Source of the DNA: Blastocatellia bacterium
GTDB taxonomy: Bacteria > Acidobacteriota > Blastocatellia > HR10 > J050
DNA: 64,000 bases
Direction: 5' to 3'
Assembly (NCBI GenBank): GCA_026985075.1
Contig: JALSQX010000022.1
Location: forward strand, 62,001-126,000
Numbering within the stretch: position 1 is the first letter of the stretch; the number at the start of each line of letters is the position of its first letter. The position numbers and the translations under genes are program-made. A model generated the notes under the pieces. That model saw only the letters and a list, made by a program, of their open reading frames with translations. It made no database searches and was not told where the DNA came from. Shown here one piece after another: positions 34,084 through 43,163 of the stretch.

Positions 34084-35067
34084 ATGCCCAGCCTCACTTA
34101 TCTCCAAGCCATACGCCAAGCCATCATCGACGAGATGAACCGAGACTCATCCGTGCTCCTGCTTGGCGAGGACATTGCCCGCTATGGTGGCGCTTTCAAG
34201 CTGACCGAAGGACTCGTCGAGATCTACGGCGCCAGTCGCATCGTTGATACTCCGATTACCGAAGCTGGCTTGATTGGCGCTGCCGCCGGCGCCGCTCTCA
34301 TGGGGTTGCGGCCCGTCGTCGAGATGCAGTTCATCGATTTCATCTCCTGTGGGTTCAACCAGCTCACCAATTTGGTCGCGAAGTTCTGCTACCGTACGGG
34401 CAAACCGCTTCCCCTCGTTGTTCGCGGGCCGGCTGGCGCCGGAGTGAGTGCTGGTCCCTTTCATTCCCAGAGCCCCGAAGCCTATTTTCTGCACACTCCG
34501 GGATTGAAGATCATCGCTCCGGCCACGCCATCTGACGCTATGGGCCTGCTCAAGGCGGCCATTCGCGACCCGAATCCGGTCATCTATCTCGAGTATAAGC
34601 GGCTCTATCGAAGGTTGAGAGAAACCATCCCCTCGGATCGGATGGACGACATCGTTCCCATTGGTGAGGCCACGGTGAGAAGACGCGGCGATGACATCAC
34701 CGTTCTCACTTATGGGCAGATGGTTCACCTGTGTCTTGAGGCTGCCCAACAACTTGAAGTCAGCGATGATATCAAATTGGAAATAATAGACTTACGTAGC
34801 ATTCGGCCACTTGACGAGCAAACCATTCTCGCTTCGGTCAGACGGACCAATAAAGTCATGGTCGTTCACGAGCCGACCCGCATTGGTGGACCGGCCGGAG
34901 AGATCATCGCTCGGATCAACGAACTCGCTTTCGACTATTTAGATGGACCCATTCTCAGGGTCACGGCAAAGGATACTCCTGTACCTTACAGTTCGCCTCT
35001 GGAGGAGGCTTATTTGCCTCGGGTGGTCGATATTGTTGATGCTGCCCGGTGGCTGGCGCATTTTTAA
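34084..35067 (+). CDS. 2-oxoacid dehydrogenase E1 component, beta subunit
   Basis: A 327-residue transketolase-like subunit: LGEDIARYGGAFKLTEGL, DTPITEAGLIGAAAGAALMGLRPVVEMQFIDF, FHSQSPEAYFLHTPGLKI and DLRSIRPLDEQTI are standard for pyruvate or branched-chain dehydrogenase E1-beta. It would bind ThDP together with an alpha subunit. No alpha subunit gene is adjacent: ahcY lies upstream. ATG 34084 starts the conserved MPSLTYLQAI. The E2 gene begins 19 bases later. Confidence 0.92.
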   Translation: MPSLTYLQAIRQAIIDEMNRDSSVLLLGEDIARYGGAFKLTEGLVEIYGASRIVDTPITEAGLIGAAAGAALMGLRPVVEMQFIDFISCGFNQLTNLVAKFCYRTGKPLPLVVRGPAGAGVSAGPFHSQSPEAYFLHTPGLKIIAPATPSDAMGLLKAAIRDPNPVIYLEYKRLYRRLRETIPSDRMDDIVPIGEATVRRRGDDITVLTYGQMVHLCLEAAQQLEVSDDIKLEIIDLRSIRPLDEQTILASVRRTNKVMVVHEPTRIGGPAGEIIARINELAFDYLDGPILRVTAKDTPVPYSSPLEEAYLPRVVDIVDAARWLAHF

Positions 35068-35086
35068 TCACGAGGAGGGAGTAAAG

Positions 35087-36778
35087 ATGAGAGTTGACGT
35101 GGTGATGCCGCAGATGGGCGAGAGCATTGCTGAGGGGACGATCAGCAAGTGGCTCAAGCAGGTGGGCGATGTGGTCAAGCGGGATGAACCGTTGCTGGAG
35201 ATTTCCACCGACAAGGTGGATGCCGAGGTTCCCTCTCCGGCCGAAGGGCGGCTGGTCGAGATCCGCTATCGCGAAGGCGACACCGTCCCGGTCAATACCC
35301 CCATCGCCGTCATTGACACGGAGGCCGCAGAAGCTGTGGTAACGGCTGGGCCTGCGTCGCCCGAGCAACCGGCAGAGCACGCGCCTCCGCCGGCCGAGCC
35401 GGAAGAGGCCCCCGCCGCAGCAGAGACCGGTGCCCAGAGAGTTGACGTGGTGATGCCGCAGATGGGCGAGAGCATTGCTGAGGGGACGATCAGCAAGTGG
35501 CTCAAGCAGGTGGGCGATGTGGTCAAGCGGGATGAACCGTTGCTGGAGATTTCCACCGACAAGGTGGATGCCGAGGTTCCCTCTCCGGCCGAAGGGCGGC
35601 TGGTCGAGATCCGCTATCGCGAAGGCGACACCGTCCCGGTCAATACCCCCATCGCCGTCATTGAGGTCGTTGCCGGCGTCCCCGAAGCCGAAGGAGCAGC
35701 AGGCCCAAAGGTCGTTCGCGTGGAACCCTCTGACTCTGGGCTCCGTCGAATCGCTCCGTCAACTCCCGGTCGTGGCGCCGCCCGCAGGGATCGCGTTCCA
35801 GCAGTGGCTGGTGCCGGCGCCATCGAGTCGCCCGAAGACCGAAGGCGTCGCCTTTCATCACCGCTGGTGCGGCGGTTGGCTGCAGAACACGGGATCAACC
35901 TCAGCGAGATCGCCGGCACCGGGCTTTCTGGACGAGTGACGAAAAAGGATATCCTCGCCGCCATTGAGAGACGGCGCGCGGCCGGAGTTGGCCGGCCAGA
36001 GGTTGTGCCCATTCCTCCTGCTGCTGCGGTGCCCTCCCCTGCTCCCATGGAGATCCCGGCCTACGAGCCCGGAGAGCCCGTTGAGATCGTTCCCATGACG
36101 CCTATGCGCAAGACGATCGCCGAGCGAATGGTCCTCAGTCGGCGTACATCGGCCCATGTGACCACCGTGTTCGAGGTCGATATGACCCGGGTCATGCACG
36201 CGCGCGACGCCCTCAAAGGTGAGTTTCTGGATCGACATGGCGTGCGATTAACGCCGCTGGCTTTCATCGCCCAGGCGTGCATTGATGCGCTCAAGAAATT
36301 CCCCATCTTCAATGCTTCCATCTCCGGGGAGAACATCGTCTACAAGAAGAACATCAACCTGGGCATTGCAGTGGCTCTCGATTGGGGACTCATCGTCCCG
36401 GTGATCAAGCAAGCCGATGAGAAGAGTCTACTCGGGCTGGCCAAAGCTATCCAGGATCTGGCCGATCGAGCTCGACGCAAGGAATTGAAACCGGAGGAGG
36501 TGAAAGGCGGCACCTTCACCATCACCAATCCGGGGATCTTCGGCAGCTTGTTCGGAACGCCAATCATCAACCAGCCGCAGGTGGCCATCCTGGGAGTGGG
36601 ATCGATTCACAAGAGACCCGTGGTCATCGAAGGCGACGCCATCGCCGTTCGATCGATGGCCTATCTTTCGCTCTCGTTCGACCATCGCCTCATCGACGGG
36701 GCCCTCGGCGACCAGTTCATGGCCCATATCAAACGGTGGCTGGAATCGCTGGACGGAGGACAGTCCACCCGGAGTTAA
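35087..36778 (+). CDS. 2-oxoacid dehydrogenase E2 (dihydrolipoyl acyltransferase) with two lipoyl domains
   Basis: A 563-residue E2. Two lipoyl domains (about residues 1-77 and 117-193), each with the modified Lys in EISTDKVDAEVP, are separated by a Pro/Ala/Glu-rich linker. A peripheral subunit-binding domain (about 265-300, SPLVRRLAAEHGINLSEIAGTGLSGRVTK) and the catalytic core follow, with the active-site SFDHRLIDGA near the end. The two lipoyl domains are identical over 228 bp of DNA. GAGGAGGGAG precedes ATG 35087. The motif MPQMGESIAEGTISKWLK is shared by pyruvate and 2-oxoglutarate E2 of actinobacterial type; the substrate is not decided. Confidence 0.93.
   Translation: MRVDVVMPQMGESIAEGTISKWLKQVGDVVKRDEPLLEISTDKVDAEVPSPAEGRLVEIRYREGDTVPVNTPIAVIDTEAAEAVVTAGPASPEQPAEHAPPPAEPEEAPAAAETGAQRVDVVMPQMGESIAEGTISKWLKQVGDVVKRDEPLLEISTDKVDAEVPSPAEGRLVEIRYREGDTVPVNTPIAVIEVVAGVPEAEGAAGPKVVRVEPSDSGLRRIAPSTPGRGAARRDRVPAVAGAGAIESPEDRRRRLSSPLVRRLAAEHGINLSEIAGTGLSGRVTKKDILAAIERRRAAGVGRPEVVPIPPAAAVPSPAPMEIPAYEPGEPVEIVPMTPMRKTIAERMVLSRRTSAHVTTVFEVDMTRVMHARDALKGEFLDRHGVRLTPLAFIAQACIDALKKFPIFNASISGENIVYKKNINLGIAVALDWGLIVPVIKQADEKSLLGLAKAIQDLADRARRKELKPEEVKGGTFTITNPGIFGSLFGTPIINQPQVAILGVGSIHKRPVVIEGDAIAVRSMAYLSLSFDHRLIDGALGDQFMAHIKRWLESLDGGQSTRS
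35089..35664 (+). repeat. Perfect 228-bp direct repeat inside the E2 gene
   Basis: Bases 35089-35316 and 35437-35664 (offset 348) appear identical at every position, including synonymous sites. Each unit codes one lipoyl domain. Confidence 0.9.
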
Positions 36779-36825
36779 TCTCGATTGCGGTGGCAAACCG
36801 AAAGGGACAAACGGAACGTCGCTCG

Positions 36826-37980
36826 ATGAGAGCGGGGATTGAGCGCCGGGTCAGTGCCAGATCACCAGATCCACTGCGGCCTCACCGTGTCCTTCACGTT
36901 TACAGGCTCGGCTGGGTGAGCTATGGAGATGGTCTCCGGCTGCAGGCTTTCCTGGTCGGTGCGAGGAGGGCTGGAGAGATCCCCGACACGCTCCTGCTCC
37001 TCCAGCACTTCCCGGTCATCACGCTGGGACGAGGGGCGACGCGAGAGGAGGTGCTCGCCGATGAACGACGTCTGGCCGACCTCGAAATTGAGCTCTTCGA
37101 GACGAACCGGGGCGGAAGGGTGACCTATCACGGGCCGGGCCAGCTGGTCGTTTATCCCATCCTGAATCTGGCACCCTCTCGCCGCGATGCGCATCGGTAT
37201 CTGAGAGACTTGGAAGAAGTGGTTCTTCGTACGCTGCGCGATGTGGGGTTGGATGGGCGACGCCTTCCCGGTTTGACCGGCGTCTGGGTTGGCGATAAAA
37301 AGATCGCCGCCATCGGCGTTCACCTCTCCCATTGGATCACCAGCCATGGGGTGGCCCTCAACGTCAACAATGAGACGAGTCCTTTCCATAAGCTGATCAT
37401 TCCCTGCGGGTTAAGTCACGACAGATACAGTGTGACATCAATTAAAGAAGAACTTCAACACGAGGTAAGTTGGTCGCTGATCGAAGAGCGCTTCATCAGT
37501 CACTTCGGGGAGGTGTTCGACTGCGGGCCCATCATCAGGTCGCCCGAGACTCAGAGCGTCCAAGTCATTGTGATGAGCGTCCCGGACAGGCGCATCCTGC
37601 TTCTGAAGCGGAACCCGGCCCACGGCGATTTCTGGCAACCGGTGACCGGTTTCTTGGAACCCGGCGAATCCCCCGCCGAGGCGGCTTCCAGGGAACTCGA
37701 GGAAGAAACGGGTCTCGTCGGTCGACCACAGAGCTTGAACCACGAGCAAAGCTTCCTGCTCGACCCCTGGCAGGTGGGAAGGGGGAACCTACAGCGACCG
37801 GCCATCCACCGTGAATATTCGTTCCTCCTGACCGTGCCCAGTCCCCCGCCTCGGCTCCGGATCGATCCTGGTCAACATGCGACAGCGGGGTGGTTCACCA
37901 TCGAAGAAGCCACCAGGCGGGTGAGATGGGATAGCACCCGCCGAGCACTCCGCCGGGTGGCTCACCTGGCCGTGCAATAG
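36826..37980 (+). CDS. lipB: LipB octanoyltransferase fused to a Nudix hydrolase
   Basis: A 384-residue two-domain protein. Residues about 20-235 are LipB, which moves octanoate from acyl carrier protein to lipoyl domains: RGGRVTYHGPGQLVVYP, Lys in DKKIAAIG, and the acyl-carrying Cys in IIPCGLS. Residues about 240-380 are a Nudix domain with GFLEPGESPAEAASRELEEETGL (the GX5EX7REUXEEXGU box). Its surroundings (ILLLKRN, DFWQPVTG, REYSFLL) resemble NudB dihydroneopterin triphosphatase. ATG 36826 is a best guess: the frame is open to 36736, overlapping E2. It follows E2, its likely substrate partner. A short A+T-rich patch lies at about 37415-37465, near the domain junction. Confidence 0.9.
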   Translation: MRAGIERRVSARSPDPLRPHRVLHVYRLGWVSYGDGLRLQAFLVGARRAGEIPDTLLLLQHFPVITLGRGATREEVLADERRLADLEIELFETNRGGRVTYHGPGQLVVYPILNLAPSRRDAHRYLRDLEEVVLRTLRDVGLDGRRLPGLTGVWVGDKKIAAIGVHLSHWITSHGVALNVNNETSPFHKLIIPCGLSHDRYSVTSIKEELQHEVSWSLIEERFISHFGEVFDCGPIIRSPETQSVQVIVMSVPDRRILLLKRNPAHGDFWQPVTGFLEPGESPAEAASRELEEETGLVGRPQSLNHEQSFLLDPWQVGRGNLQRPAIHREYSFLLTVPSPPPRLRIDPGQHATAGWFTIEEATRRVRWDSTRRALRRVAHLAVQ

Positions 37981-37985
37981 AACGC

Positions 37986-40340
37986 ATGCCCTGGAGAATC
38001 TATCGTTACATCATCAAGGAGATCATCCCTTACTTTGTTCTCACCTTCCTCATTGCCACGGCGATTATCTTCTCCCAGGAGGTCGGTCGATTCGCCGAAT
38101 TATTTGTGAAGCGAAATGTTCCGCCAGTGCTCGTTCGGACGCTCCTGATCTCGCTGCTCACCCGCATTTCCATCATCACGCTCCCCGTTTCTTTGCTGAC
38201 CGGTATCTTCTTGGCGCTGGCCCGCCTGTCGAGCGACAATGAGGTCCTCAGCCTGTTGGCCAGTGGAATGAGTCGGCGACAGCTCCTCATTCCGTTGATG
38301 CTCATTTCTGGGGCCGTCTCGTCGTTGCTGGGTTTCATCACTCTGAAAGAGCTCCCGGATTCGGCGGCCCAGTTCCGACGGATCCGCGGTGAACTGCTCG
38401 TTCAAGGCATCCGCACTCAGGTGAGACCACGGGTCTTCGACACCCGTTTCCTCCATCGCGTTCTGTACATCCGGGAGATCGACCGGCAGACCGACGTCTG
38501 GAAAGGAGTGTTCATCGCCTCCACCGAGGGTGGCGATCTGGTTCTGATGACCGGCGAGCGTGGCGTCTTGGTTTTGGGCGAGGAGCCGTCCAGCTCGCAG
38601 CTGCACCTGTTCAATGGCGTTGTCCATCGGCTGGAGAGGAACGAGGACGGGGAACTGGTATACCATCTGGAAGCTTTCTCATCGCACCACGTTCGTTTTG
38701 ATCCGCGCTCGTCCGAAGCCGAGAAATTCAAAGTGGAGTTCAAACAGAAGCCACCGGCGGTCACCGAGCGTCCTCTGAGGGAGCTCCTCAGAATACCCCC
38801 GGAGCGGGAGATGCTGTATGTTAAAGCTCGCGTGGAAGCGGGAAGGCGACTTGCTATTCCGCTCGCCTGCCTGTTATTCGCTCCCTTAGGTTTAGCGCTG
38901 GGCATCGTTCCCCGTGCGGCCGGTCGGTCGGCGGGATTCATCGTGAGCATAATTCTGGCCACCATCTACTATCTGCTGCTCTTCGCCGGAGAGCATCTTG
39001 CCCGCGCCAGGCTCGTTCCTCCATTTTCGGCCATGTGGCTGGCTGACGCCGTGTTCGCCGGTATCGGGCTGATCGGCATGCGGGAGCGACCTATTTTTGG
39101 TGGGTGGCAACACCTGCTCGCCGAAGTGGCCCAACGGACGACGGCCCTCCTTCACCGAGTACGCCGACCGAGGGAGAGAGAGGAAGCAATGATCAAGGTG
39201 ACGGTGAGAAAGAGCAAGGCGGGGTGGATCTTGCCCGTGCGACTCATCGACCGTTACCTGGCTGGTGGGTTCCTGCGTTACTTCGGCCTCGCCATGTTCG
39301 CTCTGTGGCTCATCTTCATGGTATTCACTCTGTTTGAACTCGCCCCCGATATCATCAAGCATGGTATCGGCGCGCGATACGTAGCGGAGTATTTCGCCTT
39401 TCTCTCCCCACAGGTTCTCCAGGCTCTGAGTCCGCCGTGTGCTCTCATCGCATCGCTCTTGGTGATGAGCATTCTCACCCAGCGCAACGAAGTGCTCGCT
39501 CTCAAGGCGAGCGGGATCAGCACCTATCGGATTTCCCTTCCCGTGTTGGCCCTTTGCGCCATCTTGGTCGGGCTCATGACGGCATGGGCCACCTGGGTTG
39601 TCCCCCCCGCAAACCAGCATCAGGACAGGCTCCGGTTTTATATCAAGAAGGGACGATTCCCCCAACCGATTGAACTCTCGCCTATGCCATTTATCGGTGG
39701 CCACTGGATGTATGGCCTCCAGGCCCGGATCTTCCACTTCGATGCCTTCGATCCCGCTTACGATGAGTTTCGCAATCTCCTCATCCTGGACATAGACGAA
39801 TCGAATATGTCTATTCGCCGCCGAATCGAGGCTCCCAGGGCGAGGTGGAATGATGAGCAGGGGCGCTGGATTCTGGATTCCGCACGGGTGTGGACATTCA
39901 GCGGGAGCGAGATGATCAACGGCGAAACTCGGAAGGTGTATCGGCTGGCCCTGGAGGAAACTCCTGCTTACTTTAAGAAATACGTCAAAAAACCAGCATA
40001 TATGTCGGCGAGCGCGCTCGCCGCTCACATTCGTGAACTCGCCCGACAGGGAGTTGACGTCACCGAATTGCGAGTCGCCCGGCAACGTAAACTGGCTCTG
40101 GCCTGGGCTTGTCTGGCGATGGGGCTGGTGGGCGTTCCCTTCGGGCTCTCTGCTGGCCGACGGGGTGCACTTTTTGGAGCGAGTGTAGCGGTGGTGCTCG
40201 GTGTCATCTATTGGGTCGGATGGGGATTCTTCGCTCAGCTGGGGAAGTATGGGTATGTGGGGGTGGGACTGGCTGGGTGGGGCCCGGTGGGGTTGCTCGC
40301 TGCAATAGGTGTGTATGGGTTGTTCCGTGTGCGAACGTAG
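37986..40340 (+). CDS. Fused LptF-LptG lipopolysaccharide transport permease
   Basis: A 784-residue protein made of two YjgP/YjgQ permeases in a row. Residues 1-395 are LptF-like (LFxxxxFSQEVGRFAELFV, SRRQLLIPLM, ALGIVPRAAGRSAGFI). Residues 402-784 are LptG-like (YLAGGFLRYFGLAMFALW, LKASGISTYRI, and the C-terminal helices AWACLAMGLVGVPFGLSAGRRG). Each half has about six membrane helices around a periplasmic beta-jellyroll. In most bacteria they are two proteins that with LptB pump LPS to the outer membrane. At the junction, ATG 39189 (codon 402) has GAGAGAGGAAG in front and could also start a separate LptG. It lies 5 bases after the LipB-Nudix gene. Confidence 0.92.
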   Translation: MPWRIYRYIIKEIIPYFVLTFLIATAIIFSQEVGRFAELFVKRNVPPVLVRTLLISLLTRISIITLPVSLLTGIFLALARLSSDNEVLSLLASGMSRRQLLIPLMLISGAVSSLLGFITLKELPDSAAQFRRIRGELLVQGIRTQVRPRVFDTRFLHRVLYIREIDRQTDVWKGVFIASTEGGDLVLMTGERGVLVLGEEPSSSQLHLFNGVVHRLERNEDGELVYHLEAFSSHHVRFDPRSSEAEKFKVEFKQKPPAVTERPLRELLRIPPEREMLYVKARVEAGRRLAIPLACLLFAPLGLALGIVPRAAGRSAGFIVSIILATIYYLLLFAGEHLARARLVPPFSAMWLADAVFAGIGLIGMRERPIFGGWQHLLAEVAQRTTALLHRVRRPREREEAMIKVTVRKSKAGWILPVRLIDRYLAGGFLRYFGLAMFALWLIFMVFTLFELAPDIIKHGIGARYVAEYFAFLSPQVLQALSPPCALIASLLVMSILTQRNEVLALKASGISTYRISLPVLALCAILVGLMTAWATWVVPPANQHQDRLRFYIKKGRFPQPIELSPMPFIGGHWMYGLQARIFHFDAFDPAYDEFRNLLILDIDESNMSIRRRIEAPRARWNDEQGRWILDSARVWTFSGSEMINGETRKVYRLALEETPAYFKKYVKKPAYMSASALAAHIRELARQGVDVTELRVARQRKLALAWACLAMGLVGVPFGLSAGRRGALFGASVAVVLGVIYWVGWGFFAQLGKYGYVGVGLAGWGPVGLLAAIGVYGLFRVRT

Positions 40341-40384
40341 GGGTGAGGAAATGGTGGGTGTGTTACCCGTTAGTGTGTTACTTG

Positions 40385-40404
40385 TTATCAGACCCAGATA
40401 AACT
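40385..40404 (-). repeat. Post-stop element copy 3 (after ppdK)
   Basis: On the minus strand CTGGGTCTGATAAC follows 17 bases after the ppdK stop codon and faces the convergent LptF-LptG gene. Confidence 0.55.
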
Positions 40405-40421
40405 TAAGCTCATGACGCCCC

Positions 40422-43163
40422 TCACTTCCTGCTCCCGACTTCTTCGCGTTCGGCCACCCTCTCCTTCAACTTCAACGCCGCCTGAGCTGCAGCCAACCGG
40501 GCCACCGGAACCCGAAATGGCGAACAGGAGACATAATCCAACCCGATCTCATGACAGAACTCGATGCTCAGTGGATCACCCCCATGCTCCCCACAAACGC
40601 CTATCTCCAGGTCGGGCCGCGTCCTCCGCCCCTTGCTCACGGCCATCTTCATCAACTCCCCAACCCCCTCACGGTCAATCGTCTGGAAAGGATTGGCCGG
40701 TAGTATCCCCCTCTCCACATACTGGAGCAAAAATCGAGCCTCGGCGTCGTCGCGCGAGTACCCAAACGTCATCTGAGTCAAGTCATTCGTCCCGAAGGAG
40801 AAAAACTGAGCGACAGAGGCAATGTCGTCGGCCGTCACCGCCGCCCGGGGAACCTCGATCATTGTCCCAAACTTATAATTGACCCGAACGCCCGTTTCCG
40901 CCATCACCTCCTCGGCGACCTTCTCCAGCTCCGGTTGAATCACCTTCAACTCGTTGACATGCCCCGTCAATGGAATCATCACCTCCGGCTTGACCACGAT
41001 GCCATCGCGCGCGACGCGACAAGCCGCTTCCATGATGGCCCGAACCTGCATCTTCACGATACCGGGCATGATGATGCTCAACCGAACCCCTCGCAACCCC
41101 ATCATGGGATTGCTCTCATGCATGCCCTCGATCGACGCCAATAACCTCTCCAGTTCTCCAATCCGTCCATCCGCCCTCCTTCCGAGAACATACTGACTCA
41201 CCGCCGCCAACCGACTCTCAATCAGCTGCTCCCATACCTGATTCCGATCCGGTAAGAACTCATGAAGAGGAGGGTCGATCAACCGGATGATCACCGGCAG
41301 GCCATCCATCACCCTGAACAACCCCTCGAAGTCCTGGCGCTGCAAAGGCAACAACTCCTGGAGCGCCTGCTCGCGTTCCTCTTCGCTCTCGGCCAGGATC
41401 ATCCGCTGTACGATGGGAAGACGCTCCTCCCCGAAAAACATATGCTCAGTTCGGCATAATCCAATACCTTGCGCCCCGAACCGACGGGCGCGCGCCGCAT
41501 CCTCGGGAACATCGGCATTCGCCCATACCTGCAACCGGCGAACCTCATCAGCCCAGGACAAGAGCTTCATCAACTCTGCCTGTTCCTCTAACCGAGGATG
41601 AACCGTCGGCACCCGCCCCACGAACACTTCGCCCGTCGATCCATCAATGGAGATCCACTCGCCCTCTCTCACCACGCGCTCGCCAACCCGCATCTGCCGA
41701 GCTTCCAGATCGATCTCCAGTTGCCGCGCCCCAACGATACAGGGAACCCCAAACTGCCGAGCCACCACGGCGGCATGACTCGTCGCCCCTCCCTCACTGG
41801 TCAAGATCCCCCGAGACGCCAGCATCCCATGAACATCATCCGGCTTGGTGAACGGTCGAACCATGATGACCTCCTTCCCCTCTTTCCCCCAGGTCTCCGC
41901 CGTGTCCGCATCGAAGGCAACCATTCCCACGGCGGCTCCCGGCGATGCGTTCACCCCGCGCACGAGCAGCCGCCCCTCGGCTGCCAACTGCTGCTTCACC
42001 GCGGCATCAAACTGAGGATGAAGAAGCGAATCCACATCTGACGGGCTCACTCGCATCACCGCCTCTTCTCGCTGAATCAAGCCCTCCTGGGCCATATCCA
42101 CCGCAATCTTGATCGCCGCCCTGGCCGTGCGCTTCCCCGCCCGCGTCTGAAGCAACCACAACCGCCCCCGCTCAATGGTGAACTCTACATCCTGCATATC
42201 CCGATAATGCCGCTCCAACTTGCCCGCTACCTCCACAAGCTGGTTATACACCTCGGGGAGTTCACGGGAGAGTTCAGCAATCGGCTTGGTGTTTCGAATT
42301 CCCGCCACCACATCTTCTCCCTGAGCGTTCAACAGGTATTCTCCATAGAGAACCTTCTCGCCGGTTCGCGGATCGCGCGTGAATAAGACGCCCGTCCCCG
42401 AATCCCAGCCCATATTCCCGAACACCATGGTGACCACGTTGACCGCCGTCCCCAAGTCGTGGGGGATCCCCGCGGCATTGCGATAATCGATGGCCCGCTT
42501 GGTGTTCCAACTACGGAACACCGCCTCGATGGCCAATCGCAGCTGATGATATGGGTCTTGAGGAAATTCCTCGCCCATCTCCCGACGAACGATGGCCTTG
42601 AAGGTCTCCGTCAGTTGCCGCCAGTCGGACGCCCCTAACTCGGTATCCAGTTCAACACCCCTCCGTCGCTTCAGTTCATTCAATGCCTCTTCGAAGCGCT
42701 CATCGGAAATACCGAGCACGACGCTACTGAACATCTGGAGGAACCGGCGATAGGCATCGTAGGCGAATCTCTCGTCCCCCGACTCCCGAGCGAGGGCCTC
42801 GACCGTCTCATCGTTGAGCCCCAGGTTCAAGATCGTATCCATCATTCCCGGCATGCTGACCTTCGCTCCCGACCGCACGGAAACGAGTAACGGATGCTCA
42901 CCGCCCCCAAATGTCCTCCCCGTCACCTCCTCCAGTCGCCGCAACGCCTCCATGACCTGATCCCACAGCCCCTCGGGCAGTACCTCCCCCGACCGGAAAT
43001 AGGCACTACACGCTTCCGTGGTAATCGTAAACCCCGGAGGGACGGGTAGCCCCGCATTGGTCATCTCCGCCAAACCAGCTCCCTTTCCCCCGAGAAGAGC
43101 CCTCATCTCTGCCGATCCCTCCGCTCGGCCAGCACCGAAGAAGTAAACATATTTCTTGGTCAT
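40422..43163 (-). CDS. ppdK: Pyruvate, phosphate dikinase
   Basis: A 913-residue enzyme interconverting pyruvate, ATP and phosphate with PEP, AMP and pyrophosphate. The ATP-grasp domain starts GGKGAGLAEMTNAGLPVPPGFTI. The swivelling phosphohistidine domain has the catalytic His in GGATSHAAVVARQFGVPCIVG. The PEP domain includes GIGLCRTEHMF, RDDAEARF and the active-site CGEHGGDP near the end. ATG 43163 has GGGAGGTGAG upstream. It could serve gluconeogenesis or PPi-linked glycolysis. It lies 54 bases after recO on the same strand. Confidence 0.97.
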   Translation of the reverse strand: MTKKYVYFFGAGRAEGSAEMRALLGGKGAGLAEMTNAGLPVPPGFTITTEACSAYFRSGEVLPEGLWDQVMEALRRLEEVTGRTFGGGEHPLLVSVRSGAKVSMPGMMDTILNLGLNDETVEALARESGDERFAYDAYRRFLQMFSSVVLGISDERFEEALNELKRRRGVELDTELGASDWRQLTETFKAIVRREMGEEFPQDPYHQLRLAIEAVFRSWNTKRAIDYRNAAGIPHDLGTAVNVVTMVFGNMGWDSGTGVLFTRDPRTGEKVLYGEYLLNAQGEDVVAGIRNTKPIAELSRELPEVYNQLVEVAGKLERHYRDMQDVEFTIERGRLWLLQTRAGKRTARAAIKIAVDMAQEGLIQREEAVMRVSPSDVDSLLHPQFDAAVKQQLAAEGRLLVRGVNASPGAAVGMVAFDADTAETWGKEGKEVIMVRPFTKPDDVHGMLASRGILTSEGGATSHAAVVARQFGVPCIVGARQLEIDLEARQMRVGERVVREGEWISIDGSTGEVFVGRVPTVHPRLEEQAELMKLLSWADEVRRLQVWANADVPEDAARARRFGAQGIGLCRTEHMFFGEERLPIVQRMILAESEEEREQALQELLPLQRQDFEGLFRVMDGLPVIIRLIDPPLHEFLPDRNQVWEQLIESRLAAVSQYVLGRRADGRIGELERLLASIEGMHESNPMMGLRGVRLSIIMPGIVKMQVRAIMEAACRVARDGIVVKPEVMIPLTGHVNELKVIQPELEKVAEEVMAETGVRVNYKFGTMIEVPRAAVTADDIASVAQFFSFGTNDLTQMTFGYSRDDAEARFLLQYVERGILPANPFQTIDREGVGELMKMAVSKGRRTRPDLEIGVCGEHGGDPLSIEFCHEIGLDYVSCSPFRVPVARLAAAQAALKLKERVAEREEVGSRK

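Follow-up and report, generated by a model that had tools for sequence, protein, structure and literature searches.

The two permease subunits of the lipopolysaccharide (LPS) exporter, LptF and LptG, are encoded by one reading frame in the Blastocatellia bacterium studied here, and this fusion is real and beyond chance. The gene, lptFG, occupies positions 37986..40340 (stop included) of the window, by which we mean the whole 64,000-nucleotide stretch of DNA that was analysed, and its ORF and translation give a single uninterrupted frame of 784 codons with an ATG start; the gene and every feature described within it lie on the forward (+) strand. Both halves are complete, the gene is the sole copy found, its frame is open in nearly all sampled relatives, and the partner genes are present. 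From these observations we infer a protein that would be made as a single translation product, fold and assemble in the manner of LptF and LptG, and transport LPS. We consider it highly probable (roughly 0.87) that the cell makes one fused LptFG protein and that this single chain pairs with an LptB dimer. Like LptF and LptG, each half would have a periplasmic jellyroll in addition to its six transmembrane helices, and the two halves would be connected on the cytoplasmic side by a basic linker of some 50 residues, running from the final LptF helix to the first helix of LptG. The fusion would in this way fix the F:G ratio at 1:1, with the two halves pairing in cis.

Two permease halves and their partner genes

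The assignment of the two halves is based on family models as well as on structure. The LptF half (residues 5-364; 37998..39077) scores 271.8 bits against the LptF model TIGR04407, for which the equivalog cut-off is 230, and covers positions 2-344 of the 347 in the profile. The LptG half (residues 421-781; 39246..40328) reaches 256.5 bits against the LptG model TIGR04408 (equivalog cut-off 240) and covers positions 2-350 of 351. These scores bear out the statement of the earlier note on this DNA that two complete permease halves lie in one 784-codon frame. Pfam also recognizes two LptF_LptG stretches in the protein, which together score 447.6 bits, and a sequence search of solved structures pairs the first half with LptF chains and the second half with LptG chains. 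The usual arrangement, about which the family models make no demand, is one of two separate polypeptides, and LptFG has a single frame instead. Since a search of the organism's own genome (completeness 98.66%) found no second PF03739 match, lptFG should supply both LptF and LptG.

An AlphaFold2 model of LptFG, built from seven sequences, is of middling confidence (mean pLDDT 73.0, pTM 0.61), and pLDDT falls below 50 within the linker at residues 368-378 and 393-416. Residues 3-370 of the model, comprising the LptF half, match 5x5y_F with a Z score of 25.6 over 338 aligned residues, albeit at a large rmsd of 8.4, and residues 417-783, comprising the LptG half, match 6mjp_G with a Z score of 28.3 and an rmsd of 4.8 over 353 aligned residues; these searches scored the halves separately, so that the F:G interface lies outside the score. 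The best 29 Foldseek matches were LptF and LptG chains. MATE and other transporters also appeared as structural matches with Z scores below 10, which we discounted as reflecting a common arrangement of helices. As judged from the order of helices and strands and from the Z scores, six transmembrane helices and a periplasmic beta-jellyroll are predicted for each half, and an excerpt of PMC5548808 describes six helices each in LptF and LptG.

The remaining components of an LptB2FG exporter can be found elsewhere in the same genome, where genes for LptB, LptC, an LptA-type protein and LptD are all present. The LptB gene lies away from lptFG, on contig C73, and scores 365.5 bits (cut-off 240). Directly upstream of lptB on that contig is a putative LptC-LptA fusion ORF (L073:2808-5114), which encodes 768 aa when read from ATG 2808, its nearest upstream ATG. 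The LptC match in this ORF is over the cut-off but partial (positions 38-171 of the 175 in the profile), and the same ORF also bears two LptA/LptD_N stretches, as seen in a domain search run from L073:2829. LptD is over its cut-off on another contig. Judged by these family matches, the LPS export pathway genes are present, and they include two predicted Lpt fusions, LptFG and LptC-LptA.

The immediate neighbours of lptFG have other predicted functions. Upstream, on the same strand, are genes for a transketolase-type dehydrogenase subunit, a 2-oxoacid dehydrogenase acyltransferase and a lipoyl-ligase/Nudix protein, and downstream, on the opposite strand, are genes for pyruvate phosphate dikinase and RecO. 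Two of the upstream ORFs have further features of note. The ORF at 36736-37980 combines an LplA/LipB-type lipoyl-ligase domain with a Nudix domain in a single 414-aa frame. The acyltransferase ORF at 34943-36778 contains two lipoyl domains that are identical over 74 residues and at 222 of 222 bases, which suggests that the domain was duplicated very recently or homogenized by gene conversion, or that the assembly is at fault.

The fusion and its linker across Acidobacteriota

Far from being confined to this organism, the fusion is nearly universal in the sampled phylum. For our main count, 109 phylum genomes of at least 90% completeness were searched with a profile made from 20 rows of full-length fusions, and the presence of both halves in one frame was judged from frame lengths and positions. 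A match was obtained in 107 of these genomes, and in 106 of the 109 both halves share a single frame. One genome (G151) has one half only, which ends at a contig end, and two (G085 and G094) gave no match in this profile search, of which G094 has a fused frame of 757 aa by Pfam. An artefact of assembly or sequencing could in principle have merged two neighbouring genes, but we found nothing in favour of this, and the recurrence of the same arrangement in these 106 genomes effectively refutes it; we give this notion practically no weight. Also against it are six public records in which the fusion is without stops (two labelled Blastocatellia and one each Acidobacteria, Acidobacteriota, HR10 and HR08), although some of them are seemingly of the same species as genomes already used. 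These six loci were found by scanning public genomes with a pattern from a six-sequence alignment (A2), and several have linkers identical to those of loci already used, so that they are not independent.

Searches of wider or different scope gave a similar picture. The family match was found in 390 of 396 phylum genomes, and with the LptFG protein as query, 57 of 58 genomes matched, the organism's own counted. Matches were also obtained in 37 of the 41 genomes of one family (f29), of which 34 encode the two halves in a single frame of about 640-815 aa; the exceptions are two genomes (G321 and G425) with pieces on different contigs and one (G435) with a run of N between the pieces. Weak partial matches in this family had suggested split lptF and lptG genes, a possibility that we rejected given the 34 genomes with one frame. 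Three further apparent exceptions (G048, G052 and G001) run off contig ends. Contig C1 of G428, also a member of family f29, carries two fused LptFG frames of 741 and 772 aa that lie about 24 kb apart, and the second of these is possibly a second copy. Outside the phylum, the best match in a plasmid search is annotated with separate lptF and lptG.

In the known topology of LptF and LptG, both of the ends that are joined here are cytoplasmic. The linker of LptFG (residues 366-417; 39081..39236), as described by alignment, model confidence and charge count, is basic and variable among relatives. We compared it in 59 loci, the window's own counted, which are the best-scoring matches and are biased to full-length or open frames (in one, L036, the contig ends downstream and truncates the locus). 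The linker ranges from 32 to 80 residues in these loci and varies in sequence too, and Lys plus Arg exceed Asp plus Glu in all 59. None of the 59 has an in-frame stop in the linker, and the other two frames contain stops in 42 and 31 loci; since selection by score favours open frames, the 109-genome count constitutes the less biased support. A linker that is basic, variable and open fits a cytoplasmic tether between LptF helix 6 and LptG helix 1. The variability of the linker and the low model confidence in parts of it could also be reconciled with a fusion protein that is made and then cleaved there into LptF and LptG, but no conserved motif is apparent by eye in the aligned linkers, and we regard such processing as very improbable.

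Candidate internal starts in the linker

The one fused product that we favour has to be weighed against dual expression, in which the cell would make the full fusion and, in addition, a separate LptG from an internal start at ATG 39189 (or TTG 39231), thereby altering the F:G ratio. The earlier note had raised this possibility from a ribosome-site sequence before ATG 39189, and the candidate site GAGAGAGGAAG is indeed present at 39176-39186, with a fair match to the 16S tail. Together with the ATG (residue 402) it spans 39176..39191 and has a Shine-Dalgarno (SD) energy of -8.2 kcal/mol. The ATG had been placed exactly at the start of LptG; with the LptG model beginning at residue 421 and the alignments to solved LptG chains at model residue 417-420, it actually precedes the canonical start by about 13-15 residues. 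A second in-frame candidate, the TTG at 39231..39233 (residue 416), is nearer to the canonical LptG start and has a stronger SD (-11.3 vs -8.2 kcal/mol). The presence of two fair candidates in one linker speaks for dual expression, as does the weakness of the main start at 37986, whose SD of only -3.7 kcal/mol is inferior to both. The stop of the preceding ORF is, however, just 5 bases before the main start, which may thus be reached by re-initiation.

Within the window, the strength of the internal sites can be gauged against 43 long ORFs. When the best candidate start is taken from the first 60 codons of each of these ORFs, the median SD is -7.8 kcal/mol, close to that of ATG 39189, which again favours dual expression. 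An SD as good as that of ATG 39189 also occurs at 15 of the 262 internal ATGs in the same ORFs (itself counted), and when 60-codon stretches were sampled, 13 out of 200 contained an ATG as strong. For TTG 39231, an equally strong SD is found at 12 of 949 internal ATG, GTG and TTG codons (4/262, 3/412 and 5/275, respectively; itself counted). The ribosome site of ATG 39189 is not clearly more than chance. A purine run is also expected from Arg and Glu codons, and 6 of the 11 bases of the SD are paired in the predicted RNA fold, which is itself no stabler than shuffles (z 1.68).

Sixty loci were selected for a test of linker starts, and one (L005) was dropped where the contig ends before the linker, which left 59 including the window's own; the stretch scanned was that aligned to residues 365-425, and synonymous shuffles served as the null. 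No linker ATG is present in 21 of the 59 aligned fusions. A linker ATG with an SD of -8 or lower occurs in three, namely the window's gene, L055 and L062, and the latter two count in favour of dual expression; a linker start of any kind at this strength occurs in seven. Across the 59 linkers we found no enrichment of start signals, the mean best SD being -4.6 vs -4.5 in synonymous shuffles. Individual loci reached p <= 0.05 against the shuffles in 3 of 59 cases, which is about the chance expectation, and the window's gene has a p of 0.14. The three best-matching intact relatives (L004, L006 and L007), which belong to the same family and order, have no linker ATG, and three other relatives of the same order (L027, L030 and L031) have linker ATGs with weak SDs of -2.2 to -4.6. 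Of the six public records, one (L094) has a scanned stretch free of ATG and five (L095-L099) contain ATGs that reach -6.0 at best, although the linker of L095 holds a TTG with an SD of -8.4. A single genome of the same genus was listed (G001); it shares 85% identity with LptFG across residues 1-336, where its contig ends.

An LptG-only transcript was considered as well. No consensus sigma-70-like promoter was found before LptG in 38900-40600, a weak point against dual expression given that shuffles average just 0.7 in this interval.

Taken together, the proposal of a separate LptG from an internal start finds no support, as relatives are generally without the site and start signals are not enriched over shuffles. 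The earlier note had itself taken absence of the internal site from relatives as the refutation, and on that comparison, with 21 of 59 fusions lacking a linker ATG, the outcome is against an internal start. As a conserved device, an internal start was rejected on the strength of the 59 loci set against their synonymous shuffles. In this organism, the ribosome site with ATG 39189 is probably unused or minor and the TTG 39231 site is probably due to chance; a minor LptG-only product from either codon is possible. Overall, dual expression appears unlikely, and a single fused LptFG protein is the preferred reading.

Relation to known transporters

Structures of LptB2FG(C) have been solved for E. 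coli, Klebsiella, Enterobacter, Acinetobacter, Vibrio and others. LptFG shares with the LptF/LptG heterodimer of these complexes its family models, its match to the solved structures and a coupling-helix glutamate in each half, and differs from it in that two proteins are replaced by one polypeptide with a linker. The putative glutamate of the LptF half, E86 (38241..38243), is one that we take to be equivalent to E. coli LptF E84. The putative glutamate of the LptG half, E502 (39489..39491; E. coli E88), aligns with a glutamate of solved LptG chains. PMC5082905 demonstrates a central functional role for LptF E84 and LptG E88 and describes both as strictly conserved, distant homologues included. 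In an alignment of 60 rows, the LptF-half position holds E in 59 rows and Q in the other, and the LptG-half position holds E in 39 rows, Q in 20 and a gap in 1, where the contig ends first. The loci with Q in the LptG half (L006, L008-L025 and L032) make up 20 of the 59 rows that have a residue there, and all 20 come from the class search, which provided 29 aligned rows with the residue. We looked for a corresponding change in LptB at the site that is presumably F90-R91. A motif scan of 25 LptB loci matched 24, in all of which Arg follows Phe, with the proviso that the motif itself requires Phe; the locus that escaped it (L123) is the second, weaker LptB match of G062. LptB showed no covariation with the Glu-to-Gln change: Arg is kept throughout, in the 11 Gln-group genomes as well as in the 13 Glu-group genomes.

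ABC transporters in which a single chain carries both membrane domains are known as a general type. The fused TMDs of the Thi system, described in an excerpt of PMC3688454, are one example. Such single-chain transporters resemble LptFG in that two homologous membrane domains are fused and their stoichiometry is fixed; LptFG differs as a predicted LPS extractor with periplasmic jellyrolls. LptFG is a variant of the known LptF/LptG machinery and not a new system.

We found no description of an LptF-LptG fusion in Acidobacteriota in the literature searched, which was thin on subscription journals and in part consisted of excerpts. The excerpts of PMC8787282, PMC7989815, PMC11130926 and PMC3688454 do not describe it. 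Proteins of GAL08 Acidobacteria are labelled LPS export permease LptF/LptG in PMC8787282; they share with LptFG the phylum name and the family label, and the passage in question is silent on fusion. A 2022 survey (PMC8871954) reports an apparent lack of lptF and lptG in Acidobacteria, which it nevertheless counts as LPS-bearing diderms. The words "apparently lacking" in its section 3.4 conflict with the family match in 390 of 396 phylum genomes. Hits in that survey were selected, by its own account, on E-value, length, coverage, copy number and taxonomy, and the rules on length and coverage may have dropped double-length fused proteins. The fusion may therefore explain the reported absence of lptF and lptG.

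A broader scenario, which we put forward tentatively and regard as rather doubtful as a whole, is that a covalent LptFG is a derived, phylum-wide trait that accounts for the "lacking" score, that tethering let the two halves diverge, and that in much of the class the LptG glutamate became glutamine, with ATP coupling leaning on the LptF half.

LptF and LptG are essential in model Gram-negatives and constitute a drug target. A natural single-chain LptFG would provide a 1:1 protein for structural work, and would allow asymmetric mutants in which each half is changed alone. The fusion also bears on the debate over the origin of the outer membrane, in which the absence reported in the section cited from PMC8871954 stands against a family match in 390 of 396 genomes and a fused frame in 106 of 109.
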